From Pseudomonas fluorescens (GTDB taxonomy: Bacteria; Pseudomonadota; Gammaproteobacteria; Pseudomonadales; Pseudomonadaceae), in NCBI RefSeq assembly GCF_902498195.1, contig NZ_CABVIY010000003.1:124001-188000 (forward strand): a DNA stretch of 64,000 bases, given 5' to 3'. A model generated the notes under the pieces. The model was given only the letters and a program-made list of their open reading frames with translations, was not told the DNA's origin and made no database searches. How positions within the stretch are numbered: the stretch's first letter is position 1; the number at the start of each line of letters is the position of its first letter. This document shows, in pieces, positions 26,912 to 43,054 of the stretch. Made by a program: the position numbers and the translations under genes.

Positions 26912-27007
26912 TGTGTAGGAGCTGACGAGTGCAACGAGGCTGCGATCTTTTGATTTTGTTTTTGAAGCAAGATCAAAAGATCGCAGCCTCCGGCGGCTCC
27001 TACAGGG
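26912..27007. repeat. REP/BIME element, GTAGGAGCTG type
   Basis: Degenerate left unit GTAGGAGCTGACGAGTGCAA and right unit GGCGGCTCCTACAGGG around an AGATCAAAAGATC-type core. It lies between the convergent ends of the cio operon and the CAP-domain gene. Confidence 0.85.
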
Positions 27008-27036
27008 AAAGAATATTCCAGGCTGGCCAAGGCCGC

Positions 27037-27888
27037 TTACTGCGCCCCGAACATCACTGTCCAGTAAATCCCCGCATCACTCTTCGGATCGGTCGCATAC
27101 GCGGCGCCCACATCGCGGAACTGCGGGTTCATCAGGTTGGCGCAATGGCCGGGGCTGGTCAGCCAGCCGTCGACCACCTTGCGTACGCTGTCCTGCCCGG
27201 CGGCGATGTTCTCGCCGATCTGCTGGAAGTCGTAGCCCGCCAGTTCCGCGCGGTCGCCCGGGGTGCGGCCATCGCGGTCCTTGTGATCGAAATAATTGTT
27301 GTTGGCCATGCTGCGCGACTGGGCTTCGGCGGCGCTGGCCAGGGTGGCGTTCCAGGTCAGTGGCGTGGTGGCGTTGAAGGATTGCGCGCCGCATTGGCGC
27401 GTTCGGGTGCGGGCGACGTTAATCTCGGCCAGCAGCTTCTGGCCTTCGGCCTGCCAATCTCCCAGGCGTGCGCTCAACAGCGGGCGCGCCACCACGATGC
27501 GCCAGTCGCGGTCCTGGTGGCTGACGCCGACATCGACGAATTGCGGGTCCAGCACGATCTGGCAAAAGCTTTCCTGGATCGCCTTCATCGCCGACGCCGC
27601 ATCACGCGGTCCGGACAGGCTGATCGCCTGCACGTTTTTCATCGGATAACCCGCCGTGGCCATGGCCTGTTGCAGGTTGCCGATGCTGGCGGCGTTCAGC
27701 GCCAGTCGCGGATCGGCCGCCAGCGGTGGCAGTTCCGAGGAGACCTGGCCGGCGCAGCGCTGCAACTGGCTGCGGTAGACGTTGATCGATTCGATCAGTT
27801 GCGACTCTTCGCTCGCCAACGCGGTGGCGGCGAACGACAAGCCCAGTGAAAAACCGGCAAAGCGCAGAGCGGATGATAGGAAACGCAT
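27037..27888 (-). CDS. Secreted CAP/SCP-domain protein (YkwD-like)
   Basis: A 283-aa exported protein. The signal peptide is MRFLSSALRFAGFSLGLSFA with cleavage near ATALASEE. The last 130 residues form a CAP domain: LAEINVARTRTRQCGAQ, WNATLASAAEAQSRSMANNN, FDHKDRDGRTPGDRAELAGY and GHCANLMNPQFRDVGAAYA, with the conserved His/Glu region. The N-terminal half is a helical domain without a name. Bacterial CAP proteins are extracytoplasmic and of uncertain biochemical role. The start at 27888 is chosen for the signal peptide. Confidence 0.88.
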   Translation of the reverse strand: MRFLSSALRFAGFSLGLSFAATALASEESQLIESINVYRSQLQRCAGQVSSELPPLAADPRLALNAASIGNLQQAMATAGYPMKNVQAISLSGPRDAASAMKAIQESFCQIVLDPQFVDVGVSHQDRDWRIVVARPLLSARLGDWQAEGQKLLAEINVARTRTRQCGAQSFNATTPLTWNATLASAAEAQSRSMANNNYFDHKDRDGRTPGDRAELAGYDFQQIGENIAAGQDSVRKVVDGWLTSPGHCANLMNPQFRDVGAAYATDPKSDAGIYWTVMFGAQ

Positions 27889-28030
27889 GGAAATCCTCCT
27901 TGAGCTGACTGCGCCCATGATGCGCGAAATTGCCCCCTTGAAGACACCGGATTTTCGTGAAGGTTAGAGGCGATGTGCAATCATTTCACTACTACACTGA
28001 AGCGATCATTCCCACTGAGTCCTTCCGACC

Positions 28031-28648
28031 ATGCGCCTCGACTGGATCGCTGCCTGTCTTGCACTGACAATCCTTGCCGCGCCGGCGTTCGCCGCAGACG
28101 AAGCAAAACAAAAAGTGGCCGAAGACAAGGCCGAGGTGCTGGAGCAAAAAGCCGCTGAAAACAGCAGCCCCGCACCGGCGCCCAAGGCCGAAGCCATTAC
28201 CCAGTCCGAAGTCCAGGCCGTGGACCCCGCCGGCGCCGCGCCGCTGGACGACGCCATCACCTGCCTGGCCCGCTCGATCTACTGGGAAGCCAAGGGCAAG
28301 GACTCGGCCGACATGGAAGCGGTAGCCAACGTGGTCATGAACCGCCTCGGTCACGAGGGGTTCCCGGATACCGTGTGCGGCGTGGTCAAGCAGGGTTCGG
28401 AAACCAAGAGTTGCCAGTTCTCCTGGTGGTGCGACGGCAAATCCGATTCGGTGCAGGAAGAAGTGCCGTATGCCATGGCCAAGGAAATCGCGCGCAAGGC
28501 GCTGAACAAACAGCTGCCGGATCGCACCGGGGGCGCCCTGTATTTCCATGACCGCACGGTGAAGCCGGATTGGTCCAAGGAATACATCAAGACCGTGGAA
28601 ATCGGCTTGTTCAAGTTCTACAAACCCCGTGGCGGGGATGCGAAATAG
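28031..28648 (+). CDS. Cell-wall hydrolase, SleB family
   Basis: A 205-aa exported protein: signal peptide MRLDWIAACLALTILAAPAF ending at AFAADE, an Ala/Lys/Glu-rich linker (residues 22-70), then a SleB-type hydrolase domain. That domain has CLARSIYWEAKGKDSADMEA, VANVVMNRLGHEGFPDTVCG, CQFSWWCDGK and GALYFHD. The domain cleaves the peptidoglycan glycan strand in spore formers; in Pseudomonas it probably acts in wall remodelling. The divergent CAP-domain gene starts about 140 bp away. Confidence 0.88.
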   Translation: MRLDWIAACLALTILAAPAFAADEAKQKVAEDKAEVLEQKAAENSSPAPAPKAEAITQSEVQAVDPAGAAPLDDAITCLARSIYWEAKGKDSADMEAVANVVMNRLGHEGFPDTVCGVVKQGSETKSCQFSWWCDGKSDSVQEEVPYAMAKEIARKALNKQLPDRTGGALYFHDRTVKPDWSKEYIKTVEIGLFKFYKPRGGDAK

Positions 28649-28752
28649 CCGCATTAACGTAGCAAAAACGTCGAAACTTTGTTGAACCACCGAAACTGAC
28701 ATATTTCTGTTTTACAAGCTTCATGACGGGACAACCAGGTTGGAAAAACGTC

Positions 28753-29526
28753 ATGAACGGGAACAGAACCATGGGCCAGGACATTTTAGTATCGGTGCTG
28801 ATTCCAGCGAAGAACGAAGCGAACAACCTCAAGCCGTTGCTTGAGGAAATTCGCGTGGCCATGGCCGATGAGTCCTATGAAATCATCGTGGTCGACGATG
28901 GCAGTACCGATGCCACCTTGCACGAACTGCGGCAGGTCAGGGACAGCGGCCTGGGCACCTTGCGCATCCTGCGTCATGAGCGTTCGCTGGGCCAAAGCAC
29001 ATCGCTCTACCACGCGGCGCGGGAGGCGCGGGGGCAATGGCTGGCCACCCTCGATGGCGACGGGCAAAACGATCCGGCGGACATCCCCGGCATGCTGGCG
29101 CTGGTACAGGGCGAGGCGGGCAGGGCGGGTGTGCAACTGGTGGCCGGGCATCGGGTCAACCGCCGCGATACGCCGAGCAAGCGCTGGGCCTCGCGTTTTG
29201 CCAATAACCTGCGCCGTCGTCTGCTCAAGGACGCCACCCCGGACACCGGCTGCGGCTTGAAGCTGATCGAGCGGTCGGCGTTTTTGCGCCTGCCGTATTT
29301 CGACCACATGCACCGCTTTATTCCCGCGTTGATCCAGCGCCACAACGGCCGAATGATCGTCCACCCGGTCAACCACCGGCCGCGCACGGCCGGGGTATCC
29401 AAGTACGGCAACCTCGACCGCGCGCTGGTGGGCATCCTCGACCTGATCGGTGTCTGGTGGCTGATCAGGCGCACCCGCCTGAATACCCATGCCCAGGAAA
29501 TTCACGCCCAGGAGCTGGAAGGATGA
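28753..29526 (+). CDS. Family 2 glycosyltransferase (polyprenyl-phosphate sugar transferase type)
   Basis: A 257-aa GT-A enzyme that likely loads a sugar onto undecaprenyl phosphate on the cytoplasmic side. Motifs: VSVLIPAKNEANNLKPLLEE, YEIIVVDDGSTDATLHELRQ, WLATLDGDGQNDPADIPGML (DGD/DGQND nucleotide-sugar site), TPDTGCGLKLIERSAFLRLP and the late HRPRTAGVSKYGNLDRALVG. Three in-frame ATGs are possible (28723, 28753, 28771); 28753 has GGA about 9 nt upstream. The two downstream genes encode an LAB_N membrane protein and an ArnT-like transferase, so the product is probably used for glycosylating lipid A or another envelope glycolipid. Confidence 0.88.
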   Translation: MNGNRTMGQDILVSVLIPAKNEANNLKPLLEEIRVAMADESYEIIVVDDGSTDATLHELRQVRDSGLGTLRILRHERSLGQSTSLYHAAREARGQWLATLDGDGQNDPADIPGMLALVQGEAGRAGVQLVAGHRVNRRDTPSKRWASRFANNLRRRLLKDATPDTGCGLKLIERSAFLRLPYFDHMHRFIPALIQRHNGRMIVHPVNHRPRTAGVSKYGNLDRALVGILDLIGVWWLIRRTRLNTHAQEIHAQELEG

Positions 29527-29801
29527 TCCTGACGCGCGAAGCCTTGTGGCTGGTGATCGGCTTTGCCGGGCAGATCGCCTTTACCGGCCGATTCGTCTTG
29601 CAGTGGCTGTACAGCGAATACAAAAAACGCAGCGTGATCCCGGTGAGCTTCTGGTACTTGAGCATCGTCGGCAGCACCTTGCTGTTCGCCTACGCCATTT
29701 ACCGCCAGGACCCGGTGTTCATTGCCGGCCAGGCCTTTGGCTCGATCGTGTATTTGCGCAACCTGCAATTGATCGCCAAAAGCCGGAAAACCAAGGAATA
29801 A
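29523..29801 (+). CDS. LAB_N (lipid A biosynthesis N-terminal domain) membrane protein
   Basis: A 92-aa protein beginning MILTREALWLVIGFAGQIAF. The core has FVLQWLYSEYKKRSVIPVSF and WYLSIVGSTLLFAYAIYRQD, then AFGSIVYLRNLQLI. Three short membrane helices are visible. LAB_N proteins occur beside polyprenyl-phosphate glycosyltransferases and LpxB; they are thought to help flip or present the lipid-linked sugar, without direct proof. The start overlaps the GT2 stop by 4 bp, and the stop lies 3 bp before the next gene. Confidence 0.88.
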   Translation: MILTREALWLVIGFAGQIAFTGRFVLQWLYSEYKKRSVIPVSFWYLSIVGSTLLFAYAIYRQDPVFIAGQAFGSIVYLRNLQLIAKSRKTKE

Positions 29802-29804
29802 GCC

Positions 29805-31340
29805 ATGCACCGAACCTTGTCGCCCAGGGTCGAGTGCCTGGGCCTGATGCTGCTTGCCTTTGTGTTGATGGGTGCAGGTCTGGGATTGCGCGAGGCGCAG
29901 AACGTCGACGAGGAACGGTTCCTCGGCGTGGCGCTGGAGATGTTGCATAACGGTGCCTGGCTGATTCCGCACCGCGCTGGCGAGATCTACGGCGACAAGC
30001 CACCGATCTTCATGTGGACGGTGGCGTTGTTCGTCTGGCTCACCGGCAAGCCCAACATTGCCCTCTATCTTCCGGGGTTGTTTTCGGCGGTGACGGTCAC
30101 GGCGATGGTCTACGACCTGGGGCGGCGGCTATGGACCCGGCGTATCGGTCGCATCGCGGCACTGTTGTTCCTGGCCACGTACCAGACCTACAGCATCCTG
30201 CGCACCGGCCAGATCGACAGCTTTCTGATTCTGTTCACGACCCTGGGCCTGTACGGCCTGGCGCGTCATCTGCTGCTCGGGCCGGCGTGGCGCTGGTTTT
30301 ACGTGGGCTGTGCGGCCATGGGCATCGGCGTGATCACCAAAGGCGTGGGCTTTCTTCCAGCCTTGATGCTGATCCCCTATGGCTACGCGGTGCGCCAGCG
30401 CTGGCCCGGCGTGGTGGCGATGCCGGGCGAGGCGCGTCGCTGGTTGCTGGGGGTGGGGGTGATGCTGGCGGCCATTGCGATCTGGCTGCTGCCGCTCGCC
30501 CTGTCCATCACGCTCAACGGCACGGCGGACGAACTCGCCTATGCGCGGGAAATCCTCCTGCGCCAGACTGCCGGGCGCTACGCCGCCGCGTGGCACCATC
30601 GCGAACCGTTCTGGTACTTCTTCACCCACGTCATCCCGCAATATTGGCTGCCGCTGGTGCTGGTGCTGCCATGGCTGGTGCCGGCGTGGCGCCGCCAACT
30701 GCAAAAGCGAGACGGCCGGGTGCTGGTGCTGCTGGGCTGGGTGCTGCTGGTGGTGCTGTTTTTCTGCATCAGCAGCGGCAAGCGCAAGCTGTACATTTAC
30801 CCGGCGTTGCCCGCGCTGGTGCTGGTGGCCGCGCCGCTGGTGCCCTGGCTGTTGCAGCGCTGGCTGCGCCCGCGCCCGAGGCTGCGGCGGGTGTTGCCGG
30901 CGCTGGTGGTGACCTGGTTCGTGCTGTGGTTCGCCCGGGGTTTCGTCGAGCCAGTCAGGGACGGCACCAATCCCAATGAGACGATCATGGCGCGGGCGAA
31001 CACCCTGACCCAAGGCGCGAACCTGGTGCTGGTCAACTGGAGCGAAGGGCACTGGTTGTTCGCGCGCCAGCCGATCGTGCACTTCGGCATGCTCGACTCC
31101 ACGGTAGAAAGCGCCGCGCAATGGCTGCGCGAACATCCGCAGGACTTTGCACTGGTGCCGGACGAATTGTTGACGCGTTGCTTCCATCCCGAGGCTGCCC
31201 GGGCGCTGGGTGAAAACTCGCGGTCGTCATGGTCGATTGTCGGGGCGGATGCGGATAACGGCCAGTGTCATCCGGGGCCGGCAACCAGGGTTTATCGCTT
31301 TGCATGGAGCGATCCGGTCGCCGAACGAAAACCACTGTAG
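29805..31340 (+). CDS. ArnT-like glycosyltransferase (GT39/GT83 superfamily)
   Basis: A 511-aa integral membrane transferase that uses a polyprenyl-phosphate sugar on the periplasmic face. The first periplasmic loop holds the acidic catalytic pair in LREAQNVDEERFLGVALEML and the motif GEIYGDKPPIFMWTVALFVW. About ten helices follow up to residue 390, then a soluble C-terminal domain (IVHFGMLDSTVESAAQWLRE, LVPDELLTRCF). Resemblance is to ArnT, which adds aminoarabinose to lipid A, but the arn synthesis genes are absent here. The sugar may therefore be different. Confidence 0.88.
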   Translation: MHRTLSPRVECLGLMLLAFVLMGAGLGLREAQNVDEERFLGVALEMLHNGAWLIPHRAGEIYGDKPPIFMWTVALFVWLTGKPNIALYLPGLFSAVTVTAMVYDLGRRLWTRRIGRIAALLFLATYQTYSILRTGQIDSFLILFTTLGLYGLARHLLLGPAWRWFYVGCAAMGIGVITKGVGFLPALMLIPYGYAVRQRWPGVVAMPGEARRWLLGVGVMLAAIAIWLLPLALSITLNGTADELAYAREILLRQTAGRYAAAWHHREPFWYFFTHVIPQYWLPLVLVLPWLVPAWRRQLQKRDGRVLVLLGWVLLVVLFFCISSGKRKLYIYPALPALVLVAAPLVPWLLQRWLRPRPRLRRVLPALVVTWFVLWFARGFVEPVRDGTNPNETIMARANTLTQGANLVLVNWSEGHWLFARQPIVHFGMLDSTVESAAQWLREHPQDFALVPDELLTRCFHPEAARALGENSRSSWSIVGADADNGQCHPGPATRVYRFAWSDPVAERKPL

Positions 31341-31438
31341 GAGCGAGCGCTGCTCGTGATGGACGCGAAAGCGCCATGTACCTGCGTCGGGTACTCGTCA
31401 TCGTTCACCACCATCGCGAGCAGGCTCGCTCCTACAGG
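31335..31438. repeat. REP/BIME element, GTAGGAGCGAGC type
   Basis: Inverted REP pair between the convergent ends of the ArnT-like gene and the 1180-aa membrane protein gene. Its first bases overlap the last codons of the ArnT-like gene. Confidence 0.9.
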
Positions 31439-31452
31439 TTCAATGAGAGCCG

Positions 31453-34400
31453 TTAAAACTTGGCGAAATTCAACGCATCGACAATGGCCGAGCCGCCAAT
31501 GCCCGTCAGTGACAGTAGCAAGGCCCGCACCAGCGGTTCCTCGGAGTAGCGCGAAAACGAGCCGGTGTTGAGTGTCGCAATGCGCTCGCGAATCATCTGG
31601 AACTTGTCATACCCGTTGGTGGTGGCAGGTGTTGCCAGCAGGTAGGCGTCTATGCGCTGCAACGCCATTCCCCGGGCTTTTTCCGCGGCGCGGCGCAACG
31701 ACAGTGCGGACGCCAGCAACAGCAGCGCGGTCAGCGTGAATGAAATGACCATGCCGGGCGGTGTGGGCCAGTTATCGAACACGCTGCTGCGCGAGGCAAT
31801 CAGGATCAGCATGACCACGGTCGGTGCGTAGATCAGGCGATTGACCGCCGAGGTGCGTTTGGCAATCAGCAACAGGTCGACCCAGTCATCGATGCACGGA
31901 TGCTTGCCGACGCCAAAGATCTTCTGATGTTCGGCTTGCAGTTTGACCGGCCAGATCGCGTAGCGCGTGCTCAAGTGGCGGATGAACCGCGTCAGCAACA
32001 GGTTGGCGTCCACCACCCAGAACACCAGCACCTGGAAGGCCAGCGTCGGCAATAGCCAGCTGAGCAGCCAGACGGGCGAGTCACCACGAACGGGGATCCC
32101 GGCCACCGGCCAGATGACGTACAGCACGCTGGTGGCCACCACAAATATCCAGGTGGCGAGCATGGCCCGCAGCATGCGGGCACCGAATGAACCGCACACA
32201 CAGTGCTCTCCCCAAAAGCGTGCGACGGACATGACGGGGCGTCCATCGGCGCTGGTTTCCGAGACCAGTGACTTGGACCTGGACCACTCGACGCTGGCGT
32301 TGGACAGTGGAAACAGAATGAGAAACAGGCACTGGCCCAATTCCTTGCACCACTGGCGCCATGTTTTGTCTTTCTTGCCCCGGGCAAAGCTCGGAAGCTG
32401 CCCCAGGAGACTCATCCGGTATTTCTGGATGTGGGGACGCAAGTGATAGGCCGTTTCGATTTCGATCCTGTTGATGCGCAAGTTGCGCTGGCCCCACGCC
32501 AGCGCCGAAATGCAGATGAGCACGGCGAGCAGGCGCAACGCAGCGGTCGGCCAGGCACTGATGCCTTCGAACAGGAACATCGGCTCACCCAGCCCGTGGT
32601 CGGTCAATGCGCTGCGCATTTGATAGGCCAGCATCAGGGCCAGGACAAACACCACCAGGGGCACCGCGATGTACCAGGCGCTGGCGTCGAACATCCCGTG
32701 GCCCACCACGGGCGGTGAAATTCTGGCCAGCGGCTGAAGCGAGCGACGGGTCAGCTTCGAGGTGATGATCCCCAGCAGAATCAGGGCGAAACTGCCCCAC
32801 AGGAACTCGGCGTGCCAGTAGCGTGTGCCGATCAAGGCGCAGGCAGCCGCGGCCATGTACAACGCCATCGGTACACCTCGTACCCAGGCCAGGGGCGGGT
32901 CGTTGACCGATTGCGAGCCTTCGATCCACCACCACAGCAGGAACGCGGCCAGCAGTAACAGCGTGAACGTCAGTGGCCCTGCCCAGAAGAACGATTGGGT
33001 TTGCTTGAAGTTTTCACGTATCGAGTCTGACGGCTCGGGGTAGGGCGGGGGTGAAGGGTCTTGCAGGCAACGCAGCGCCATCAGGTCATGGGGACGAATG
33101 CCCCGATTGGATTCGGACAGTGCCGGTGCGGCGCAGTTTTCGGGACGCGACGCTGTCAGTCGGCTGGCCAGCGGAATGAATCCGCTGATCCCGACTTCGT
33201 AGATGCCCGGCGACAGGAGTTCCGATTTGGAGTAGTCGAACTTTGCCCGTTTGACATCGAAGGGCTGCGGCGCCAAGGCCGCCAGCACCGAGATAAACAC
33301 CGAGCTTTGCAGGCTGTCGCGAAAGGGCGGGATGTCCTGTTGCAGGGCGCGCGTCAGTGTCAGCCCGTAAGGCGCCGCGAGGATCAGGTTGCGCGTGGTT
33401 TCCGCCTGCCCCCGTTGCAGCATCCGCGCATCCAGGTCGGTGGAGAAGTAGAGCTTGTAGGGCATCCGGGCCTTGAGGGCCTGCAGCACCAGCAACTTGT
33501 CGTAGCTGTCGACGCCCAGCACGCCGATGGCGCCGATTCCGCTGACCCCGTCGCGCCGGTAGGCTTCGTCTTCGTTGGCGATGTGATCGGCCAGGCGGCG
33601 CAAGTAGTCGAGCTGCGAGTTGCCGTCGGATTTCTCCAGCGGGCTGAGGTCCACCTGGGTGGCCGCTCGGCTGTTTTTACTGGACTCGGGGCTGGTGGAT
33701 TTTTCGCTACTGGCGGACTCTTCCGGCAGGCGTCCGTCCAGGCCTCGCAGATAGCTGAAGCGCAAGACCCACTGATCGACGACGCCCTTTTTATCTTTTT
33801 CGTCGTCACCCAGGTGAGCGTCCAGCGCCACCTGATCCTTGAAACTCTCCATCAGCGCCCGACTGTAGAAACTGTCCCATTCGGCGATCAGCGCAATGCG
33901 ATTGGTCTTCGCCCAGCGATTGACGTTGCAAGGCGATCCGACGCGACGCAGTTTGCCTTCGCTGCAGCGAATACCCGTGGCCGGGTCCACTTTGCGCAGC
34001 TTCAGTTCTTCGAGCAACAGGTGGGTCATGGTGCCGTCGTCGCTGACGGTACGCAGCAATTTCATGGGCTGTCTGAGGGGTGTTTCCTGCGGTGGCGTCT
34101 GCCCCGCCAGATCCGGCAAGGCTTGCACCACCTTGCGCATTTTATCGGCCTCGGAAGGCTTGAGGCTTTTCTTGAGCGTTTCGTTATCCGCCGTCGCCAG
34201 CGGTGAATAAATCTCGACAGCGGGCGTTGCCTTGTTGTCCGCATCTTGCTGGTACATGTCCAGCAGAACCGTCGAGGTCGAAGGGCCAATGACTTTCAGC
34301 ACCGGTGATTTATCAGGTTGTTCGCAGGCCGTTTCGATGCCTCCCGCTTGTCCAGTGGTGCAGGCCAGGCGCCGGCGCAACGACTCCAGGGCCTCCAGGG

Positions 34401-34995
34401 GGTACTGCCCCAGTTCGTCCTGTTTCATCCAGAATACGTAGGTGCGATCAGGCGGCGCCGCCAGCCCCTCCAGTGCGACAGGTCGATCGAAGCGATTGGA
34501 GACGAACATTTCATAGGGAAGGTTCAGATCCCGTGAACTGGAGGGACTGACGACCAGGTTGGGCACTTTCAGGCAATGTATGTATTGCTCCTGATCCGGC
34601 ACCCGCTGGGAGTTCTTGAAGCCCGCCAGGAGGGCATAGCGGATACGCCGCCGCCGTTCGACCTCATCGGCGTAAGGCCCACCCTCGACCAGCACCACCA
34701 TGAGATCGGGAGCGGTTTTTTCGTTGTCTACCTTGTCGATGGTTTCATTGCACACCTCGGTTTTCCCGGACCCGCTGTCCTTGAGTTTTTTGCGATACCG
34801 CTCAAGGGCATCAAACGGGTCTTGCCACAAGCGCGCTTCGATAGGCAGTTGGGCCTGAAACTGCGCACCGATGGGCCGCGGCTCAAGAAACGGTTCGCGA
34901 GTCAATGCGAACGTCGATATCACCAGACTGAGGATGACCGCACCTCCCGGCAACCAGAACGCCAGGTTAGCGCCTGAATCCCTATTGTTTTCCAT
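31453..34995 (-). CDS. Unrecognised 1180-residue multi-spanning membrane protein
   Basis: I do not recognise a named family. An N-terminal helix (about residues 11-30, AFWLPGGAVILSLVISTFAL) is followed by a large soluble, probably periplasmic part to about residue 690. Around nine or ten further helices follow (from FFWAGPLTFTLLLLAAFLLW to VISFTLTALLLLASALSLRR), with a cytoplasmic loop of about 100 residues between them. The soluble part has alternating strands and helices reminiscent of type I periplasmic binding domains: TNRIALIAEWDSFYSRALME, VVDQWVLRFSYLRGLDGRLP and IGAIGVLGVDSYDKLLVLQA. A Ser-rich insert (ESASSEKSTSPESSKNSRA) interrupts it. GAGG lies 8 nt before the ATG. The gene stands alone next to AT-rich DNA. 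A signalling or sensing role is plausible but unproven. Confidence 0.85.
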   Translation of the reverse strand: MENNRDSGANLAFWLPGGAVILSLVISTFALTREPFLEPRPIGAQFQAQLPIEARLWQDPFDALERYRKKLKDSGSGKTEVCNETIDKVDNEKTAPDLMVVLVEGGPYADEVERRRRIRYALLAGFKNSQRVPDQEQYIHCLKVPNLVVSPSSSRDLNLPYEMFVSNRFDRPVALEGLAAPPDRTYVFWMKQDELGQYPLEALESLRRRLACTTGQAGGIETACEQPDKSPVLKVIGPSTSTVLLDMYQQDADNKATPAVEIYSPLATADNETLKKSLKPSEADKMRKVVQALPDLAGQTPPQETPLRQPMKLLRTVSDDGTMTHLLLEELKLRKVDPATGIRCSEGKLRRVGSPCNVNRWAKTNRIALIAEWDSFYSRALMESFKDQVALDAHLGDDEKDKKGVVDQWVLRFSYLRGLDGRLPEESASSEKSTSPESSKNSRAATQVDLSPLEKSDGNSQLDYLRRLADHIANEDEAYRRDGVSGIGAIGVLGVDSYDKLLVLQALKARMPYKLYFSTDLDARMLQRGQAETTRNLILAAPYGLTLTRALQQDIPPFRDSLQSSVFISVLAALAPQPFDVKRAKFDYSKSELLSPGIYEVGISGFIPLASRLTASRPENCAAPALSESNRGIRPHDLMALRCLQDPSPPPYPEPSDSIRENFKQTQSFFWAGPLTFTLLLLAAFLLWWWIEGSQSVNDPPLAWVRGVPMALYMAAAACALIGTRYWHAEFLWGSFALILLGIITSKLTRRSLQPLARISPPVVGHGMFDASAWYIAVPLVVFVLALMLAYQMRSALTDHGLGEPMFLFEGISAWPTAALRLLAVLICISALAWGQRNLRINRIEIETAYHLRPHIQKYRMSLLGQLPSFARGKKDKTWRQWCKELGQCLFLILFPLSNASVEWSRSKSLVSETSADGRPVMSVARFWGEHCVCGSFGARMLRAMLATWIFVVATSVLYVIWPVAGIPVRGDSPVWLLSWLLPTLAFQVLVFWVVDANLLLTRFIRHLSTRYAIWPVKLQAEHQKIFGVGKHPCIDDWVDLLLIAKRTSAVNRLIYAPTVVMLILIASRSSVFDNWPTPPGMVISFTLTALLLLASALSLRRAAEKARGMALQRIDAYLLATPATTNGYDKFQMIRERIATLNTGSFSRYSEEPLVRALLLSLTGIGGSAIVDALNFAKF

Positions 34996-36087
34996 GGCCT
35001 GTCCCTCGGATGGCCGACTGTTACAAGTAATGTATAGACCCGATTAACCAAATAGTTCATGGCGGCGTTTAGTTACCTGGCTCGCGTGTGTGGCTGATTA
35101 ACGCCGGTTGGTATGGGAAGCGGAGATGTTTATTTCGCGCTGTACCGGCGTCAGTAAGAACTTGCATTTGGGCGCTCTGAAAGTTTAGGGCTTGACTGTC
35201 TGGATTGATTTGTAAGTTTGAAATTTATTAGTTGTTGTGCAGGAGAGGTGAAGTACGACAGTGCCAATTAATAAAAAAGAAGTTGGTGTTTCTGGTTTAA
35301 ATGCTGCAGGCAAAAATTGCCGAGTGAAGTTGGAGTTCACTGTGTGCGACCGTATCGACAAGGTGTAAGAACTATTTGTGAAGAGCATGTCATGACGCGT
35401 CTGTCTTTTAATCATGCTGGATCAGCCGGTCTAGAGCGGTTGTTCGGCTCGTCGATACGGTGGCGAGCCAAAAGGCTGGCCGTAAAAGCCTTGAGGTGAT
35501 GGGCGATGGAGGGGATGGAGACAGGGTCAGCAGGCATTGGCTGCACGTCGACCCGGATTCACCTGAGATATTAATGTACGGAGAATCGTCGAACTGTCGA
35601 TCTGCATGGATTTATTTGCGAGACGTTATCAGTTGATGTTGGAGTTGAACTTTTTGGATCCGTATATCGTGCAGGCATAGTAATGAGTCAAGCAAAAAAC
35701 GCAATGAAAGCCAGGCGGTTGATAGACGCAAAACATCAATGGGTGCAGCCACTTGATAATAACGGTCGGACCTAATAGGCAGCTTCTAAATGTCGAAATA
35801 TTCCAAGAAAAGTCTGAACTTTTTTCGGCTGTCGTTTGGTGTTTGAAGAGCTTGAAGGGTTTTTGCGTATTGGAGCGGACTGTTATTCAATCGGACTGTA
35901 AGGTTATTAATACAAGTGGGTGTCTGCATAGAAATAAGGAGGTTTAATAACTGTCCCGGTTTGAAGTCTTGTGCTTGTCCTGAAAGCAAGTATTCCCTCC
36001 TTTTGAGTCATCGCACATGTTCATGTGCATGAGCGCGGTGCGCATCCGAAACGGTCTGAAGCTGTGGCGCCGTAAGAAATCTGATCC
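34996..36087. other. AT-rich 1.1-kb stretch without a convincing gene
   Basis: Base composition drops clearly compared with flanking genes. Open frames are short. The most gene-like is a GTG-started 35-codon frame at 35261-35368 (MPINKKEVGVSGLNAAGKNC and fifteen more), preceded at poor spacing by AGGAGAGG. An AAGGAGG at about 35936 is not followed by an open frame. No tRNA, insertion sequence or repeat is recognised. The stretch must contain the promoter of the 1180-aa protein gene and may be decayed accessory DNA. Confidence 0.45.
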
Positions 36088-36194
36088 CCCTGTAGGAGCG
36101 AGCACGCTCGCGATGGTCGCTAACGATGACGCGTACTGAGGGGGTCAGCGCGTTATCGTTCACGACCATCGCGAGCGTGCTCGCTCCTACAGGG
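36088..36194. repeat. REP/BIME element, GTAGGAGCGAGC type
   Basis: Nearly perfect inverted pair TGTAGGAGCGAGCACGCTCG and CGAGCGTGCTCGCTCCTACA with the common GCGTTATCGTTCACGACCAT middle part. It lies just after the DoxX gene stop. Confidence 0.92.
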
Positions 36195-36207
36195 AAAACG
36201 GGTGGGT

Positions 36208-36723
36208 TCAGGCGTGGCTGCGGCGCCAGAAGAAGCGTGCCAGCACGCTATCGAGGCTGAATTTGCCTGGGCCTGTGAACACCAGTGGCACCAGTGCCGC
36301 GAGGTAGATCAACGGCAGCTTGAAGTTGCCGTAACCCTTGTTGGTGATTGAGTAACCCTGGGCCAGTTCGCTCAGGCTCGACCAGTCGGCAGGCCAGTGG
36401 ACGGCGGCGGTGGCGACAATGGTGACCACGATCAGGCTGATCGCCGAAAAGCGCGTGGCCAGGCCCACCAGCAGGGCGAGGGCGCAGATCAGTTCCACCC
36501 ACATCGACAGTTCCCAGTTCAGCGTGGCCGGCAGGTGGTTGAACGGAAACAGGAAACGGTCCTGGATGTCGGCGAACCAGTTCTCGCCATTGAATTTTTC
36601 CAGCCCCGACTCGAAAAACTCCCAGGCCAGGAATACCCGCAGCGTCAGCGGCGCGATCCAGTTGCCGGCACGGTCAAGGTTCAGGTGCAGGCCTTTGACG
36701 GCCGATGAAATCGAAGTGCTCAT
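36208..36723 (-). CDS. DoxX-family membrane protein
   Basis: A 171-aa protein with four membrane helices: [54 protein letters not shown] and [20 protein letters not shown] with FSLDSVL. The first helix with the Glu-Lys pair and the final GxGxFSLD segment are DoxX hallmarks. Family members are linked to quinone or thiol redox balance, but no reaction is established. It stands as a single gene with GGAG before its ATG. Confidence 0.88.
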
Positions 36724-37143
36724 GGACGGTGTTCTCCTTCAAATCAGGGATGTCGGGCGGTGGCAGGCCCGTTCAGCGCAAGGATCGGCTGGGCCAATCG
36801 ACAGGTGAATTTCATCAGGCGGGTGTATCTGCGATGTGTCGCTGGCGCGCAGGTTTGAAGGTTTGTTGTGTCAGGGGCGGGGCTGTACACACTTTGATAC
36901 GTAGATGACCTCCAGACGCCGATGGTCCTCTGTAGGAGCGAGCCTGCTCGCGAAGCGGACTGACCCGTCGACATCTATGTTGGATGTTGCATTGCTTTCG
37001 CGAGCAGGCTCGCTCCTACAAAGGAATGTGTGCGTTTGTGTAACGGTGGCCTGCTGTTAATTCGTCGAATTGGATCTTTTACCCGGCCCCGTAGCTTCGT
37101 ATCGTCCGCGCTTTTGACGCCTTGCGTCTGGGGGAGAGTGGGG
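36724..37143. other. Spacer between DoxX and chemoreceptor genes
   Basis: A 420-bp divergent intergenic region. It holds the DoxX promoter on the left, a REP pair at 36930-37021 and the promoter and leader of the chemoreceptor gene on the right. No further gene is seen. Confidence 0.5.
36930..37021. repeat. REP/BIME element, GTAGGAGCGAGC type
   Basis: Inverted REP pair with CCTGCTCGCGAAGC / GCTTTCGCGAGCAGG arms, located in a divergent intergenic region rather than after a gene end. Confidence 0.9.
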
Positions 37144-38223
37144 ATGAATTTCACATGGCGCAGGAAGACCGCTGAATCCACCGTTGAGCCATCCGTGCCG
37201 GCGAACCCGCCATCGATCGCGGCTAAAAGCGATGACGCTCAACTGGCCGCGCGCAAGGCCGAGCTTCGCGACCGGGATTTTTTCCGCGGCCTGGCACAGC
37301 ACCTGCTGACCTGCGGTAACTCGCTGTCACCGGTCAGCGAGTCCTTCTCGATGCTCAACCAGCGCCTCAAGCTCAACCACCAGCGGGCGGAAACCGTGGC
37401 TCGCGCGGCCATCGACAACCGCGAGCAGGTCAGTCATCTGCAAGAGCAATCGCGGGTCATGGCCGCCGGGCTGGATGCGCTGGAAGGCGTGATCACCCAC
37501 CTGGTGGGTCGCGCCAGCGAGATCGACCGCATCGTCGACCTGATCAGCGACATCGCGCGCAAGACCAACCTGCTGGCCCTCAATGCCGCCATCGAAGCCG
37601 CGCGCGCCGGCGACACCGGGCGCGGTTTTGCGGTGGTGGCCGGGGAAGTGCGATTGCTGGCGGAAAAGACCGCCGAAGCGACCCGGGAAATCGTCAAGGA
37701 AACCTCGGCCATCCAGCAGGAAATCAGCCACGCCAAACAGGCGATTTCGCAACAGAGCCAGGTCTCCAGTGCCTTCGGTGCGGTGATCGACAAAACGGCC
37801 GAGGCCATGGCTGGCATGTATGGCGAGGCGCAACAGATGCAGCGGGACATCGACCAGTCGCACCTGCTGTCCAATGTCGAACTGGCCAACCTGCAGGAAT
37901 TGACGCTGAAAGTGGCGGTGTACGACCGCCTGCTCAACCCCAAGCCCCATTCACCCTTGATCCTGCCGGATGAAACCGAGTGCCTGTTCGGCCAGTGGTA
38001 TTACGGTGAAGAGAACCAGACCCAGCAGCGCGATGCGGATTTCCGGCGCATGGAAGTGCCCCATCGGCTGGTGCACAGCAGCGGCCAGGCGGCGCTGCAA
38101 GCACACGCCCGTGGCGAACTGGAAGAGGCGCTCAAGCAGGTCGGGCAGATGGAAGACGCGAATGCCGCGGTGATGCGCACGGTCAAGGGGTTGCTGCATT
38201 CGCGCCTGCAAGCGGCGGTCTGA
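37144..38223 (+). CDS. Soluble methyl-accepting chemotaxis protein with CZB zinc-binding domain
   Basis: A 359-aa cytoplasmic chemoreceptor without membrane helices. The signalling tip is [20 protein letters not shown] followed by [20 protein letters not shown], the kinase-control hairpin. The C-terminal domain (about residues 270-350) has the CZB pattern: [26 protein letters not shown] and a further His region, giving the Cys/His zinc site. CZB receptors have been shown to sense oxidants such as hypochlorous acid in other bacteria. ATG at 37144 has GGGGAGAG upstream. No che genes are nearby. Confidence 0.92.
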
Positions 38224-38239
38224 CACCGGGCTCCCGGTG

Positions 38240-39031
38240 CTAGAGCGGCAAGGCCAGGATGCGGTTGCGCAAGTGCTCCAGCGTCTCGTCATCCAGCACC
38301 GTGGTGAGGTCCAGGCCTTCTTTGGCCTGGTACAGGTTCATCGCGTCCCGGGTCTGTTTGCCGACGATGCCGTCGATCGGGCCGGGGTGCCAGCCCAGGT
38401 ACGTCAGGTAGGTTTGTGCCGTTCGAATCCTCAGGTCCGGCGTGCCGCCATAAGAAAACTTCTGATACGCGGCGCTGAGTCGCACGTCGTAGTTGTTGAT
38501 GGCGTAGTTGGGGCCGTTGTAGCGCCGGGCGAAATTCGCCCAGTCCCTGGCCCGCAGCGCCGCCACGGAGCCGCCGCCGATGAGTTCGCCGACGGTGCAC
38601 AGCAGTTGTTCGTTCTCGGACACGACCATGCGCTTGACCATCGCCTCGACATCCGCCGAGCCGGCCGAGGCGAAATTGAACCCCATCGTCTGGCCCAGCC
38701 CCCACGACGTACTTTGCAGGGCCGCATTGCGGTTCAGGGCGATGGCCTGGTTCAGCCGGTCGTACTGGTGGTCCCCCGAGGCACCATAATTACCGGGGGT
38801 TTTACTGCTGATATCGGGGTGTTGCGCATCAAACTTCTGGTGGGTGAGGCGGCTGAATACGTGGCGCTCGAAAAGGATCTTCGGACGGCGGTCAGAAAAG
38901 TAGCCGTTGCCGGAGGTTTCTACTGCCAGAACAGCCCAGAGTTGCGCGGCGCTGACTTTGGCCAGGTCCAGTGCCTGTTCCAGGCCTTCGTCGTCAATGG
39001 CCACGCCATGGCCTGTGAATTCATCGCTCAT
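38240..39031 (-). CDS. N-acetylmuramidase with C-terminal peptidoglycan-binding domain
   Basis: A 263-aa endolysin-like protein. Residues 20-185 form an N-acetylmuramidase domain: WAVLAVETSGNGYFSDRRPK (catalytic Glu candidate in VETSG), ILFERHVFSRLT, LQSTSWGLGQTMGFNFASAG and FARRYNGPNY. Residues 195-255 form a PG_binding_1 domain: LRIRTAQTYLTYLGWHPGPI then DGIVGKQTRDAMNLYQ. There is no signal peptide, as in phage endolysins that need a holin. It stands alone and no phage genes are around it, so it may be a domesticated lysin. Confidence 0.88.
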   Translation of the reverse strand: MSDEFTGHGVAIDDEGLEQALDLAKVSAAQLWAVLAVETSGNGYFSDRRPKILFERHVFSRLTHQKFDAQHPDISSKTPGNYGASGDHQYDRLNQAIALNRNAALQSTSWGLGQTMGFNFASAGSADVEAMVKRMVVSENEQLLCTVGELIGGGSVAALRARDWANFARRYNGPNYAINNYDVRLSAAYQKFSYGGTPDLRIRTAQTYLTYLGWHPGPIDGIVGKQTRDAMNLYQAKEGLDLTTVLDDETLEHLRNRILALPL

Positions 39032-39208
39032 GACGGCCTCCTACGTAACAGGAAACGCGGGTACACGCTTTAAGCGTAGGTGGGCCGGGCGCGGGCAGGG
39101 GGCTTTGCGATTACCGGCACAGGCCGACGGCGCAGCGCGGCGGCGGGTGACGCTCGGGGACTTTTGCTATACATTTTCCGCCCGCCCATTGCATGGTGTA
39201 ACCGCTTC

Positions 39209-40711
39209 ATGTCCTTTGCGCTCGAACGTCTAGTCGCTGGCACGCCCATCCCTTTCGCCGGTAATCGTGTCACCGTGGTCAGCCCCGAACTGGCGGCCCG
39301 CTTCCAGCCCGGGGACCACCTGCTGGTGGAGCAGGTCAGCGGTGAATTGCTGCTGATTCCGGTGGCTGACCAGCAGGCGGCAGCGGTGGCGATCGAGCGC
39401 GCTGAAGCGGCGTTTGGCGCGATGTCGGCAGTCTCGGACCAGGCCATCAGCCAGTTCTTCGATCTGTTCGCCCAACGCCTGGAAACCCCGGCGTGCTGGG
39501 CCTTGATCGAAGCGGCCAACCAGGCCGACATCGAACGGGCCAAGGCCCGTGGCCGCTCGACCACGCGCCTGCTGGCCGACGAACGCATGCGCGGCGACAT
39601 GATCGCCGGCCTGCGCGCCTGGCGCGATGCGTCGGCCTCGCGCGGCAAGGTGATCAGTTGCGTCGAGCACGACGGCTGGAAAGTCGAGCAAGTGGTCTCG
39701 CCTCTGGGCATCGTCGCGTTTGTCTTCGAAGGCCGGCCGAATGTCTTCGCCGATGCCGCCGGCGTATTGCGCACCGGCAACACGGCCGTGCTGCGCATCG
39801 GCAGCGATGCGTTGGGCACGGCCCAGGCCATCGTCACCCACGCGCTGAATCCGGCACTGGCCGAAGCCGGATTGCCGGAAGGCGCGGTGTCGCTGGTGGA
39901 AAGCGTCAATCACGCCGCCGGTTGGGCGATGTTCGCCGATCGCCGGTTGTCGCTGGCCGTGGCCCGTGGTTCAGGGCGCGCCGTCAGCCAGTTGGGCAGT
40001 ATCGCGCAACAGGCCGGTACCGCCGTCAGCCTGCACGGCACCGGTGGTGCCTGGCTGATCGCCGATACCGACGCCGATGCCGCGCGCTTTGGCCGCGTGG
40101 TGCGCAACTCCCTCGACCGCAAGGTCTGCAATACCCTGAACGTCTGCCTGATCCACCGCGACCGCGCCGCGCAACTGGTGCCGCTGTTTCTTGACGCGCT
40201 GCAACAGGCCGGCAAGGCACGGGGCCAGGGTTGCAAGCTGCACATCGTCGAGGGCAGCGAACAGTACCTGCCCGCCGAATGGCAAACCGCAACCGTCGAG
40301 GTTTACCGCGCTGAAGGCTACCGCACCGAAGCGCTGGCTGAAGCGCTGGCGGAAGATCAGTTGGGCCGCGAGTGGGAGTGGGAAGAAACCCCGGAAGTCA
40401 GCCTGAAAATCGTCGACGACCTGGACAGCGCCATTGCCTTGTTCAATCGCTACAGCCCGCAGTTCACGGTGTCGCTGATCAGCGAAACGGCGACGACCCA
40501 GGAGCGCTTCTACAACGCCGTCAACGCACCCTTTGTCGGCAATGGCATTACCCGCTGGGTCGACGGCCAGTACGCGCTCAACAAGCCGGAACTGGGCCTG
40601 TCGAACTGGGAGAGCGGGCGCCTGTTTGCCCGCAGCGCGATCCTGTCGGGCGACGGTGTGTTCACCATTCGCAGCCGCATGACCCAGATCGACCTGGGCG
40701 TCAAACGCTAG
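39209..40711 (+). CDS. Aldehyde dehydrogenase related to glutamate-5-semialdehyde dehydrogenase (ProA-like)
   Basis: A 500-aa ALDH-fold protein, about 80 residues longer than housekeeping ProA. The core matches the gamma-glutamyl phosphate reductase family: GWKVEQVVSPLGIVAFVFEG with RPNVFADAA, TGNTAVLRIGSDALGTA and the active-site cysteine in VVRNSLDRKVCNTLNVCLIH. The last part has NAPFVGNGITRWVDGQYALN. The first 75 residues form an unusual N-terminal extension (PIPFAGNRVTVVSPELAARF). Proline synthesis normally uses the separate proA gene, so this is probably a paralogue acting on another semialdehyde or acyl phosphate. Start at 39209 by alignment. Confidence 0.8.
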   Translation: MSFALERLVAGTPIPFAGNRVTVVSPELAARFQPGDHLLVEQVSGELLLIPVADQQAAAVAIERAEAAFGAMSAVSDQAISQFFDLFAQRLETPACWALIEAANQADIERAKARGRSTTRLLADERMRGDMIAGLRAWRDASASRGKVISCVEHDGWKVEQVVSPLGIVAFVFEGRPNVFADAAGVLRTGNTAVLRIGSDALGTAQAIVTHALNPALAEAGLPEGAVSLVESVNHAAGWAMFADRRLSLAVARGSGRAVSQLGSIAQQAGTAVSLHGTGGAWLIADTDADAARFGRVVRNSLDRKVCNTLNVCLIHRDRAAQLVPLFLDALQQAGKARGQGCKLHIVEGSEQYLPAEWQTATVEVYRAEGYRTEALAEALAEDQLGREWEWEETPEVSLKIVDDLDSAIALFNRYSPQFTVSLISETATTQERFYNAVNAPFVGNGITRWVDGQYALNKPELGLSNWESGRLFARSAILSGDGVFTIRSRMTQIDLGVKR

Positions 40712-40723
40712 GACGTGCCTCAT

Positions 40724-40755
40724 GCGACCGCCGCAATGGCGGTCGCTGTGCTTTT
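40724..40755. terminator. Bidirectional terminator between the ALDH gene and cynT
   Basis: Stem GCGACCGCC / GGCGGTCGC with a 5-nt loop, followed by GCTTTTG on the plus strand. It lies between two convergent genes. Confidence 0.75.
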
Positions 40756-40757
40756 GA

Positions 40758-41417
40758 TCAGGCAGCATCAACCACCTGGTCATACACGGCGCAAGTGGTC
40801 GGGTGCTCGGCCAGCGACACGAAGCGGCGGCTGCTGCCTTCGAGGGCATCGATCGAACCGGTCTCGATGTCGTATACCCAACCGTGCAACTTCAGCAGAC
40901 CTTTTTCCTGGGCCAGGCGCACGCTCGGATGGGTCTGGATGTTAGCCAGCTGCGCGATCACATTCTCCCGAACCATTGAACTCACTTTCGCCGCTTCATT
41001 GGCGTGATGACGCGACTCGTTGATGACTTTTGCCGACTCGGCGTGTTGCAGCCAGCTGCCGACGGCGGGCAGGTGATCCATGCAGGTGCACTTGGCGACA
41101 GCGGTCATGGCGCCGCAGTCGGAATGGCCGCAGATCACGATATCGGTCACGCCCAGCACGGCGACGGCGTATTCGACCGTGGCTGACACACCCCCGGGAT
41201 GGGGGCTGTAGGAGGGCACGATGTTGCCGGCGTTACGGATCACGAACAGCTCGCCCGGTTCTTGCTGGGTCAGCAATTCCGGCACCACACGGCTGTCGGA
41301 ACAGGTGATGAACAGCGTGCCGGGGTGTTGCGTGGTGGCCAGGTGTTTGAACAGGTCGGTGCGTTGTGGAAAGACGTCTTTCTGGAACTTCAAAAAACCT
41401 TCGATGAGCGCTTTCAT
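40758..41417 (-). CDS. cynT: Beta-class carbonic anhydrase
   Basis: Hydrates carbon dioxide to bicarbonate with zinc. The 219-aa protein shows the beta-class ligands: Cys and Asp in [14 protein letters not shown] and His/Cys in [15 protein letters not shown]. In the cyanate locus it keeps up bicarbonate, which cyanase consumes and which would otherwise leave the cell as carbon dioxide. It lies 59 bp after cynS on the same strand. Confidence 0.93.
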
Positions 41418-41476
41418 GGTGGTGTCCTCATGGGGGGCCGGGTTTGGCCCGCACGGAGGTGCGGGCCGTTGTCGAG

Positions 41477-41944
41477 TCAGAAAGGACGCAGGGGCAGGAA
41501 CTTGCCGTCCAGGGTGATCACGGCGCGGTGGCCGCCTTCCGGGTCTTCAACCTTCTTCATGTCCAGCTTGAAGTTGATGGCGCTGATGATGCCGTCGCCG
41601 AACTGTTCATGGACCAGGGCTTTCAAGGTGGTGCCGTAGATCTGGATCATTTCGTAGAAGCGGTAGATGGTCGGGTCGGTCGGGACGCCCGAGAGGCTGC
41701 CGCGCAGCGGGATGATTTGCAGGCGGGCCACCGCGTCGGCGTCCAGTTCGAGTTTGTCGCCAATCACCTGGGCAGCGCTTTGCGGCAGTGGGTGCTGGCC
41801 GAGCAGGGCGGCGGTGACGTAGGCTAGGCCAAGGCCGGTGCCGTCAGTCAGGTCCTGCCAGGACAGGTTTTTACGCGCCTTGGCGTCGAGGATCTCGGTG
41901 GTCAGGGCCAGGCTTGGATCGTTGTAGGCGTGGGACTGTTGCAT
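41477..41944 (-). CDS. cynS: Cyanase (cyanate hydratase)
   Basis: Converts cyanate and bicarbonate to ammonia and carbon dioxide. The 155-aa protein has an N-terminal helical domain (residues 1-85) and a C-terminal catalytic domain. The active-site residues are seen in [12 protein letters not shown] (Arg and Glu three apart) and in [11 protein letters not shown] (Ser). The protein normally forms a decamer. Start [20 protein letters not shown] at 41944 with GGAG about 8 nt upstream; the longer frame runs into the operator region. First gene of cynS-cynT. Confidence 0.95.
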
Positions 41945-42038
41945 GATGAATCTCCGTTTGCAGTGGGGTGTGGCTGGGTGTGGGGTCATCTTCTGCCGAT
42001 CCACTCATAGCGTCCAAGATCGATATACAATGCAAGGC

Positions 42039-42053
42039 ATAAGTACTGCCTAT
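42039..42053 (+). promoter_or_regulatory. Probable CynR operator
   Basis: ATAAGTACTGCCTAT is an imperfect palindrome with the LysR T-N11-A spacing, 13 bp before the cynR ATG and about 95 bp from the divergent cynS start. Its place fits autorepression of cynR and activation of cynS. Confidence 0.55.
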
Positions 42054-42066
42054 AGATGGAGTTCCC

Positions 42067-42948
42067 ATGCTGCTGCGTCATTTGCGTTACTTGCTGGCCG
42101 TCGCCGACCACGGCGGTTTCACCCGCGCCGCTGAAGCCCTGCACGTGTCCCAGCCCACCCTTTCGCAACAGATCCGCCAGCTTGAGGACACACTCGGTGT
42201 CAGCCTGTTTGACCGCACCTCGCGCACGGTCAAGCCCACCGACGCGGGCCAGGCCTATATCGAGTGCGCCCGGCGGGTGCTGGTGGAGCTGGAGGCGGGC
42301 AAGCGCGCGTTGCATGACGTGAAGGACCTGTCACGTGGCAGCCTGCGGGTAGCCATGACCCCGACCTTCATGGCGTATATGGTGGGGCCGCTGGTACGCG
42401 ACTATGTGGCGCGGTATCCGAACATCCATCTGGAAGTCTTCGAATTGTCGATGGACGACATCGAAAGCGGGCTGGCGGATGACTCGCTGGACGTTGCGAT
42501 CGCGTTCGACCAGGTGAGAAACGCCGACATCGAGTCGATCCCGGCGTTTAACGAGACCCTGGGGCTAATGGTCGGCCGGGCGCATCCGCTGTATGAAAGC
42601 CAGGACGCGTTGACGACGGGGCAGGTGGCGCAACTGGAATTTGCCCTGTTGACCCCGGAATTCTTCACGCGTACCTGCATCGACGAGTACTTCGCGCTGG
42701 CACGGATCACGCCGAAGGTGGCCATCGAGGTCAACTCGGTCAACACGCTGCTGGAAGTCATCCGCCACACCGCCATGGCAACGATCCTGCCGGAACCTAT
42801 CGCCACGGGCGAGCGGGCGTTGCGCAAGATTCCACTGGTGCAGGAAGCGCCGAGGCGCGGCGCGGCGGTGCTGCGACGCAGGAACAACTATCACAGTGCG
42901 GCAGCGATGGCGTTTGTGGCGTTGGTGTTAGGCACCGATCTTCCATAG
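42067..42948 (+). CDS. cynR: CynR, LysR-type activator of the cyanate operon
   Basis: A 293-aa LysR protein divergent from cynS-cynT, matching CynR in length and context. HTH region: MLLRHLRYLLAVADHGGFTR and LHVSQPTLSQQIRQLEDTLG. Effector domain with FMAYMVGPLVRDYVARYPNI and FTRTCIDEYFALARITPKVA. CynR proteins respond to cyanate. Start ATG at 42067 with GGAG about 8 nt upstream. Confidence 0.9.
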   Translation: MLLRHLRYLLAVADHGGFTRAAEALHVSQPTLSQQIRQLEDTLGVSLFDRTSRTVKPTDAGQAYIECARRVLVELEAGKRALHDVKDLSRGSLRVAMTPTFMAYMVGPLVRDYVARYPNIHLEVFELSMDDIESGLADDSLDVAIAFDQVRNADIESIPAFNETLGLMVGRAHPLYESQDALTTGQVAQLEFALLTPEFFTRTCIDEYFALARITPKVAIEVNSVNTLLEVIRHTAMATILPEPIATGERALRKIPLVQEAPRRGAAVLRRRNNYHSAAAMAFVALVLGTDLP

Positions 42949-42958
42949 CACCACAAAA

Positions 42959-43054
42959 CCCTGTGGGAGCGGGCTTGCTCGCGAAGGCGGTATGTCAATC
43001 GATACCTGGGCTGACTGACACACCGCCTTCGCGAGCAAGCCCGCTCCCACAGGG
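42959..43054. repeat. REP element, GTGGGAGCGGGC variant
   Basis: Inverted pair CTGTGGGAGCGGGCTTGCTC and GAGCAAGCCCGCTCCCACAG. This is a distinct sequence variant from the GTAGGAGCGAGC elements. The arms extend inward (GCGAAGGCGGT / ACCGCCTTCGC), giving a long hairpin after cynR. Confidence 0.9.

Follow-up and report, generated by a model that had tools for sequence, protein, structure and literature searches.

A predicted bacterial receptor family that joins a Venus-flytrap domain to a membrane module resembling insect chemoreceptors

Introduction

What might be the role of a large membrane protein that no family model recognises? The question is raised by a gene of Pseudomonas fluorescens that lies in a stretch of 64,000 nucleotides (assembly GCF_902498195.1, contig NZ_CABVIY010000003.1, positions 124,001 to 188,000 of the forward strand), the whole of which we call the window. 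ORF (open reading frame) calling and translation delimit a frame of 1180 residues plus stop at window positions 31453-34995 on the minus strand. An original prediction, made from the sequence alone, had described an orphan protein with a periplasmic-binding-like ectodomain and a multi-helix membrane domain, possibly an accessory sensor, transporter or defence protein. The extent and length that it gave stand; the strand had to be set to minus, because the plus-strand translation has 14 stops. We propose that the protein may be an inner-membrane ligand-gated receptor channel, in which a periplasmic flytrap would gate a channel like those of the 7TMIC superfamily (insect gustatory and odorant receptors, including Orco), and we give this explanation about an even chance of being correct.

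A genuine gene that family models do not match

The gene product comprises an N-terminal anchor, a flytrap ectodomain, three linker helices and a C-terminal seven-helix module, as deduced from the ORF, its translation, the ratio of nonsynonymous to synonymous substitution rates (dN/dS) and the homologues. It is a genuine gene and more than a chance ORF, because its guanine-plus-cytosine (GC) content by codon position (0.606/0.450/0.768) resembles that of adjacent genes, it is under purifying selection (dN/dS of 0.13-0.24 across six homologue pairs), and 23 of the 26 copies found in the genus are intact. One region, residues 270-320, is hypervariable, with dN/dS up to ~1.0 in one homologue pair. 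The window's own genome has a single copy. We dropped the idea of a foreign composition, since the GC content of the gene (0.608) matches that of the whole window (0.611) and recent alien DNA is thus not indicated.

Searches against Pfam, NCBIfam, PADLOC and PHROGs yielded no family for the protein, and searches against PDB sequences yielded no match. A Pfam scan of 30 homologues returned 18 families at E ≤1. No family recurred in more than six members or reached an E below 0.006, a picture that suggests chance matches. The outcome that would have refuted the original prediction, an unambiguous profile hit to a known family, thus did not occur. The term orphan holds for annotation, where family models match nothing, and fails otherwise, since homologues exist. 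No paper on the family was found in literature searches, whose coverage left out most subscription papers.

The ectodomain has a Venus-flytrap fold

The structure prediction and fold search that the original prediction had proposed as checks were run. The full-length AlphaFold2 model, built from 30 sequences without templates, has a mean predicted local distance difference test score (pLDDT) of 73 and a predicted TM-score (pTM) of 0.69. According to the model and to fold comparison with Foldseek and VIA-align (hereafter VIA), residues ~94-617 (33145-34716, minus strand) form a type I periplasmic-binding, or Venus-flytrap, domain. Among 994 chains compared by VIA, 737 had Z of at least 8. LivK (3td9) aligned with Z 18.6, a root-mean-square deviation (rmsd) of 4.2, 309 of the 350 residues of that chain and 13% identity, and AmiC and glutamate-receptor flytraps are among the matches listed. 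Type I binding proteins (LivK/LivJ, AmiC) and the flytraps of metabotropic and ionotropic glutamate receptors (mGluRs and iGluRs) resemble residues 94-617 with Z of 15-18.6 over ~300-330 aligned residues. Identity is ~9-13% among the matches listed, and the target differs by its N-terminal anchor and ten C-terminal helices. Foldseek agrees: the full-length model had 13 matches at E ≤0.001, led by mGluR5 (E 7e-6). The strand-helix pattern behind the claim of a periplasmic-binding-like ectodomain is therefore that of the type I fold, inside which both of the sequence phrases quoted for it lie. No type I binding-protein family occurs among the Pfam families listed for the 30 homologues, nor for the target itself.

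A small ligand may bind between the lobes of the predicted flytrap, a fold that fits the suggested role of sensor. A Ser/Lys-rich loop within the ectodomain (residues 419-458; 33622-33741, minus strand) has pLDDT below 50 and is poorly conserved.

The top ectodomain matches are solute-binding proteins of ATP-binding cassette (ABC) importers, and fused binding protein-permease transporters exist. A transporter that carries its own substrate-binding domain, in which the flytrap would hand its solute to the membrane helices for passage, is nevertheless quite improbable: no permease or ATPase family, including the ABC ATPase domain, was found in the target or in 30 aligned members, and no transporter fold exceeds Z 8 among the VIA matches listed for the membrane domain.

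Helices and topology of the membrane domain

Hydropathy and AlphaFold2 agree on a layout in which one N-terminal helix (~residues 12-31) precedes ~640 soluble residues and ten helices make up the C-terminal part, much as had been proposed (with a soluble region of ~650 residues). The N-terminal helix is a putative signal anchor (residues 12-31; 34903-34962, minus strand), identified by hydropathy and modelled as a helix at residues 17-30 with pLDDT below 50. In the Foldseek list of the full-length model, the insect receptors BmGr9 (E 0.017, probability 0.98) and Gr43a (E 0.054) rank far below the flytraps that lead it, and the membrane domain was for this reason modelled alone (residues 655-1180, 28 sequences, no templates; mean pLDDT 73.1, pTM 0.74). 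It starts with linker helices A, B and C (residues 669-757; 32725-32991, minus strand), delimited from the models and the hydropathy of seven proteins. The C-terminal seven-helix module follows (residues 771-1180; 31456-32685, minus strand), delimited from the membrane-domain model, the 7TMIC matches and hydropathy. By computation, its helices are S1 774-797 (24 residues, in two pieces), S2 815-849 (35), S3 937-961 (25), S4 974-1010 (37), S5 1033-1068 (36), S6 1080-1121 (42), S7a 1129-1140 (12) and S7b 1154-1179.

The window protein and six homologues share seven aligned hydrophobic segments (the last seven counted, linker helices excluded). Between flytrap and S1 there are three helices in six of these seven proteins, as in the target's family branch, and one in the homologue L052. 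The number is always odd, and this parity of predicted helices would place the start of S1 inside the cell if the flytrap lies in the periplasm. The loops on the side then assigned to the cytosol have 99, 53 and 55 residues, against 22, 12 and 12 on the outer side.

Resemblance to insect 7TMIC receptors

VIA compared the membrane domain with 979 chains, 13 of which had Z of at least 8 on the whole model. In the resulting table, which has one row per entry, insect gustatory and odorant receptors occupy ranks 1-12 and 14-19 for the membrane domain alone, with Z of 8.3-11.1. Their alignments span 253-289 residues (rmsd 5.8-7.3 Å, identity 6-11%) and all begin at model residue 105 or later, so that the linker helices lie outside the match. 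The membrane domain scores Z 9.4 against Orco (6c70; rmsd 7.0, 280 residues aligned) and 11.1 against Gr43a, on a scale that VIA shares with Dali without being Dali. With the same model as query, Foldseek listed seven matches with a probability of at least 0.5, all insect gustatory receptors; the other matches listed have at most 0.35.

The model was also compared with published descriptions of these receptors. Its helix lengths follow the gustatory-receptor pattern given in PMC10769236: S1 and S3 are short, S2, S4, S5 and S6 are long, and S7 is split. The criteria for 7TMICs in PMC9998090 are seven helices, an intracellular start, intracellular loops longer than extracellular ones, long TM4-TM6 below the bundle, TM7 split into 7a and 7b, a Dali Z above 10 to Orco with characteristic packing, ligand-gated cation conduction, and a sequence-profile match (7tm_7 or solved structures). 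The model has seven helices, longer inner loops, long S4-S6 (37, 36 and 42 residues) and a split S7, of which S7b is of low confidence. As in 7TMICs, the chain ends just past the last helix. The target differs in being bacterial and in lacking detected sequence similarity to them (7tm_7 and PDB searches); sequence divergence in the 7TMIC superfamily is described as extreme (PMC9998090). Furthermore, insect receptors bind their ligand within the membrane helices (PMC10769236), whereas the target has a separate flytrap and linker helices before the module.

Several observations weigh against the 7TMIC resemblance. VIA itself cautions that Z below ~13 may be chance for helical bundles, and all the insect-receptor values fall within this range; the match is therefore suggestive and not proof. 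Unrelated designed helical proteins stand at VIA ranks 13 (Z 9.2) and 20 (Z 7.9). Foldseek gave the membrane domain no match at E ≤0.001 and none under 0.1, the first place by E goes to a designed cage that is unrelated (E 0.14, with a probability of 0.23), and the target TM-scores of the gustatory receptors are ~0.2-0.4. Among PDB sequences, profile A4 matched nothing but Jun coiled coils, with E of 4.3 and above, and Pfam 7tm_7 appeared in a single one of 28 members (E 4.6), amid 25 chance families. Helix S7b is uncertain (pLDDT ~50-57), and homologue L038 has an extra hydrophobic segment near 884-902 that upsets the parity if it spans the membrane. Finally, the charge bias is mixed: the N-terminus has few Lys/Arg residues (0.46 per 10), and a loop assigned to the outside has 1.20. 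Separately, a viral fold library searched with the membrane model gave 166 matches at E ≤10, none at ≤0.001, with probabilities of at most 0.22 among the matches listed. In summary, the predicted resemblance to 7TMICs is supported but not proven.

A 2023 Dali screen reported Orco-like structures to be absent from Prokaryota (PMC9998090), and PMC11526382, citing Himmel et al. 2023, speaks of 7TMICs as thought to have been transferred from eukaryotes to prokaryotes. Because of the latter statement, prokaryotic members would not be new in themselves; the novelty would be the fusion with a flytrap and the gene context. A flytrap-fused 7TMIC was not found in the accessible parts of PMC9998090, PMC10769236, PMC11100771, PMC11526382 and PMC12187929, a set outside which most subscription papers lie.

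A candidate flytrap-gated channel

How could the two domains work together? The N-terminal helix would anchor the periplasmic flytrap in the inner membrane, and a ligand would close it. The strain of closing would pass through the linker helices to the seven-helix module, and a pore lined by S7b would open in an oligomer, which would be a tetramer if it is like that of insect receptors. S7b (residues 1154-1179; 31459-31536, minus strand) is the candidate pore helix and shows a conserved Pro, a Gly-rich run and Asp/Glu/Gln in the alignments. Ligand binding, oligomerisation, the pore, its ion selectivity and the cellular effect of its opening are what we infer in this scheme.

iGluRs and class C G-protein-coupled receptors (GPCRs) are built on the same general plan, in which a flytrap on the outside controls the membrane part, and their flytraps match that of the target; their membrane domains are absent among the matches listed for the target membrane domain. 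The plan is also compatible with a receptor without a pore, in which the flytrap would sense a periplasmic ligand and the membrane helices would relay the signal to a partner in the cytosol. Among bacterial 7TM receptors, 7TMR-DISM, with an outer domain and seven helices, works in this way. The three long, conserved loops assigned to the cytosol could bind such a partner, and full-length class C GPCR chains appear in the Foldseek list of the whole model. Still, rmsd for those chains is close to 30 Å, the membrane-domain matches listed by Foldseek or VIA include no GPCR, and neither a recognised output domain (Pfam, target and homologues) nor a consistent partner gene (neighbourhoods) was found. 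From 7TMR-DISM the target further differs in that this Pfam family is unmatched in target and homologues (no search was dedicated to it), in having no inner output domain, and in the direction of S1, which would run from inside to outside. We therefore consider a pore-less receptor unlikely, with a flytrap-gated channel as the preferred explanation.

If the channel explanation is true, free-living bacteria possess the fold that forms the pore of insect smell and taste receptors, joined to a ligand trap of the glutamate-receptor type. This would be a third route of coupling flytraps to membrane domains, besides iGluRs and class C GPCRs. It would provide a lead on the origin of the insect chemoreceptor fold, a bacterial system for studies of gating, and a means of testing an ancient channel fold against gene transfer. 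Even without the 7TMIC reading, the analysis delimits a receptor-like family that has no annotation and whose flytrap domain is clear.

Taxonomic distribution

The target is an accessory, usually stand-alone gene. It matched 26 of 398 congeneric genomes, with 23 open, full-length copies and three broken ones (G264, G046, G135), a patchy presence that fits the accessory character originally suggested. Beyond the genus, the family sample had matches in 8 of 198 genomes (two already counted in the genus sample), from three of 19 genera, and the order sample in 1 of 194, the window's own genome. The phylum sample had six in 398: the own genome, one from a different gammaproteobacterial family (G856), and four from f78, a family in which 5 of 74 genomes matched, one of them by a 44-residue piece. 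A further phylum sample searched with the membrane profile gave 2 of 120, both previously found. The nearest named relative is in Pseudomonas brassicacearum (75% identity), and identity to the window protein falls to 28-32% in distant members. Over the membrane domain, L052 and L053 share 23-24% identity with it.

The class sample (3 of 166) comprised the own genome and two partial relatives. In G1208 (L115 3183-5336, minus strand) the copy is limited to the ectodomain; the membrane part is absent, since the reading frame continues into the adjacent oxidoreductase gene. G1257 encodes a stand-alone protein of 133 residues (L116 7473-7874, plus strand) that matches just the last two helices of the family (S6-S7), which suggests that this part is separable, although it may be a remnant. 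L116 adjoins a gene resembling an M14 carboxypeptidase (judged by eye).

A mobile or plasmid gene was also considered and rejected. Plasmid searches gave one partial match, a 152-residue ORF on a Methylosinus plasmid (L032 9953-10411, plus strand) that covers target residues 18-139 and is perhaps a truncated alphaproteobacterial member. With L052 as query the same record was found, and with L054 there were no matches.

Gene neighbourhood and envelope-attacking enzymes

The neighbourhood analysis of homologues that had been proposed found mostly ordinary chromosomal genes around the Pseudomonas copies, and no constant partner. The suggested defence role was dismissed as unsupported: PADLOC matched no family, the neighbours are mostly ordinary, 29 stretches of viral contigs matched a pattern without any being confirmed as relatives, and phage records had none.

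We searched 38 target loci (the window, L002 and L052-L087) with probes for neighbouring genes. A muramidase, lysozyme-like or peptidoglycan-binding gene was found at 13 loci (11 apparently intact; broken at L086 and L087) and a Tle1-like lipase at four (L053, L065, L066 and L083), in four lineages with different genes. In the window, this gene encodes an endolysin-like muramidase of 263 residues with a peptidoglycan-binding domain (38240-39031, minus strand; PF11860 E 8e-57, PF01471; PDB endolysin E 9e-37). These neighbours raise the idea of an envelope-attack module with muramidase and phospholipase, in which the target would serve as controller, exporter or immunity component. Full-length window-type muramidases (≥85% identity) occur in seven of the 398 genomes, each of which has a target match, frameshifted in G264, and both genes are broken in G046 and G135. 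G087 and G262 have a muramidase remnant and no detected target remnant. Yet 25 of the 38 loci have no such gene nearby. A full-length window-type muramidase is missing from 19 of the 26 genomes that have the target, and on the target tree its presence falls within a single clade, with at least three changes. In the window, the muramidase lies 3.2 kb from the target, with DoxX and a chemoreceptor in between on mixed strands; it is a possible partner that does not share an operon with the target. A 48% relative is present in G002, where the target is absent. Of 37 genomes that have the target, 21 contain Tle1-like genes, mostly away from it, and the window's own genome has none. A role in such a module seems improbable to us.

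The association is a lineage-level tendency; it may be coincidental, or the channel may be put to a separate use there. A combined scheme, in which the 7TMIC-fold channel gated by its fused flytrap serves in some lineages as a ligand-triggered holin for the nearby muramidase or phospholipase, is conceivable, and we lean against it. The nearby enzymes appear to lack signal peptides, as judged by eye and by family matches starting near the N-terminus (Tle1 at residue 3, PG_binding of L053 at residue 9, the muramidase against the endolysin structure at residue 7). This remains a reading, because a crude hydropathy score did not separate the muramidase (1.85) from two secreted controls (1.64 and 2.60).

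The Tle1-like neighbours led us to consider a type VI secretion effector-immunity pair, which was rejected as no vgrG was noticed by eye in the gene lists (no profile search was made for vgrG). The L053 locus also has a PhoD-like gene, and L059 has a patatin, a metallo-beta-lactamase-fold gene and, by eye, a gene with an HExxH-like stretch. A gene of 567 residues in L066 and L083 is lysozyme-like by eye only, as Pfam and PDB gave no match. Away from the target, Tle1-like lipase genes adjoin peptidoglycan-hydrolase-type genes at L100 7057-10321 and L102 6576-9317 (Rv2525c-like with DUF2272; Amidase_3), hinting at a recurrent pairing of lipase and wall hydrolase. In G002 (L106 2783-8669), a relative of the L065 muramidase lies beside a patatin-like protein of 1114 residues and an M15/VanY peptidase, with the target absent.

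The AT-rich flank noted originally is confirmed: GC is 0.478 at 35000-36200, against 0.608 in the gene. This stretch upstream of the target has no annotated gene and is possibly a decayed insertion. Rfam gave no match at window positions 27000-43000. Two imperfect palindromes resembling repetitive extragenic palindromic elements, with arms of 46 and 42 nucleotides, lie at 36088-36194, between the target and DoxX, and at 36913-37038, past DoxX.

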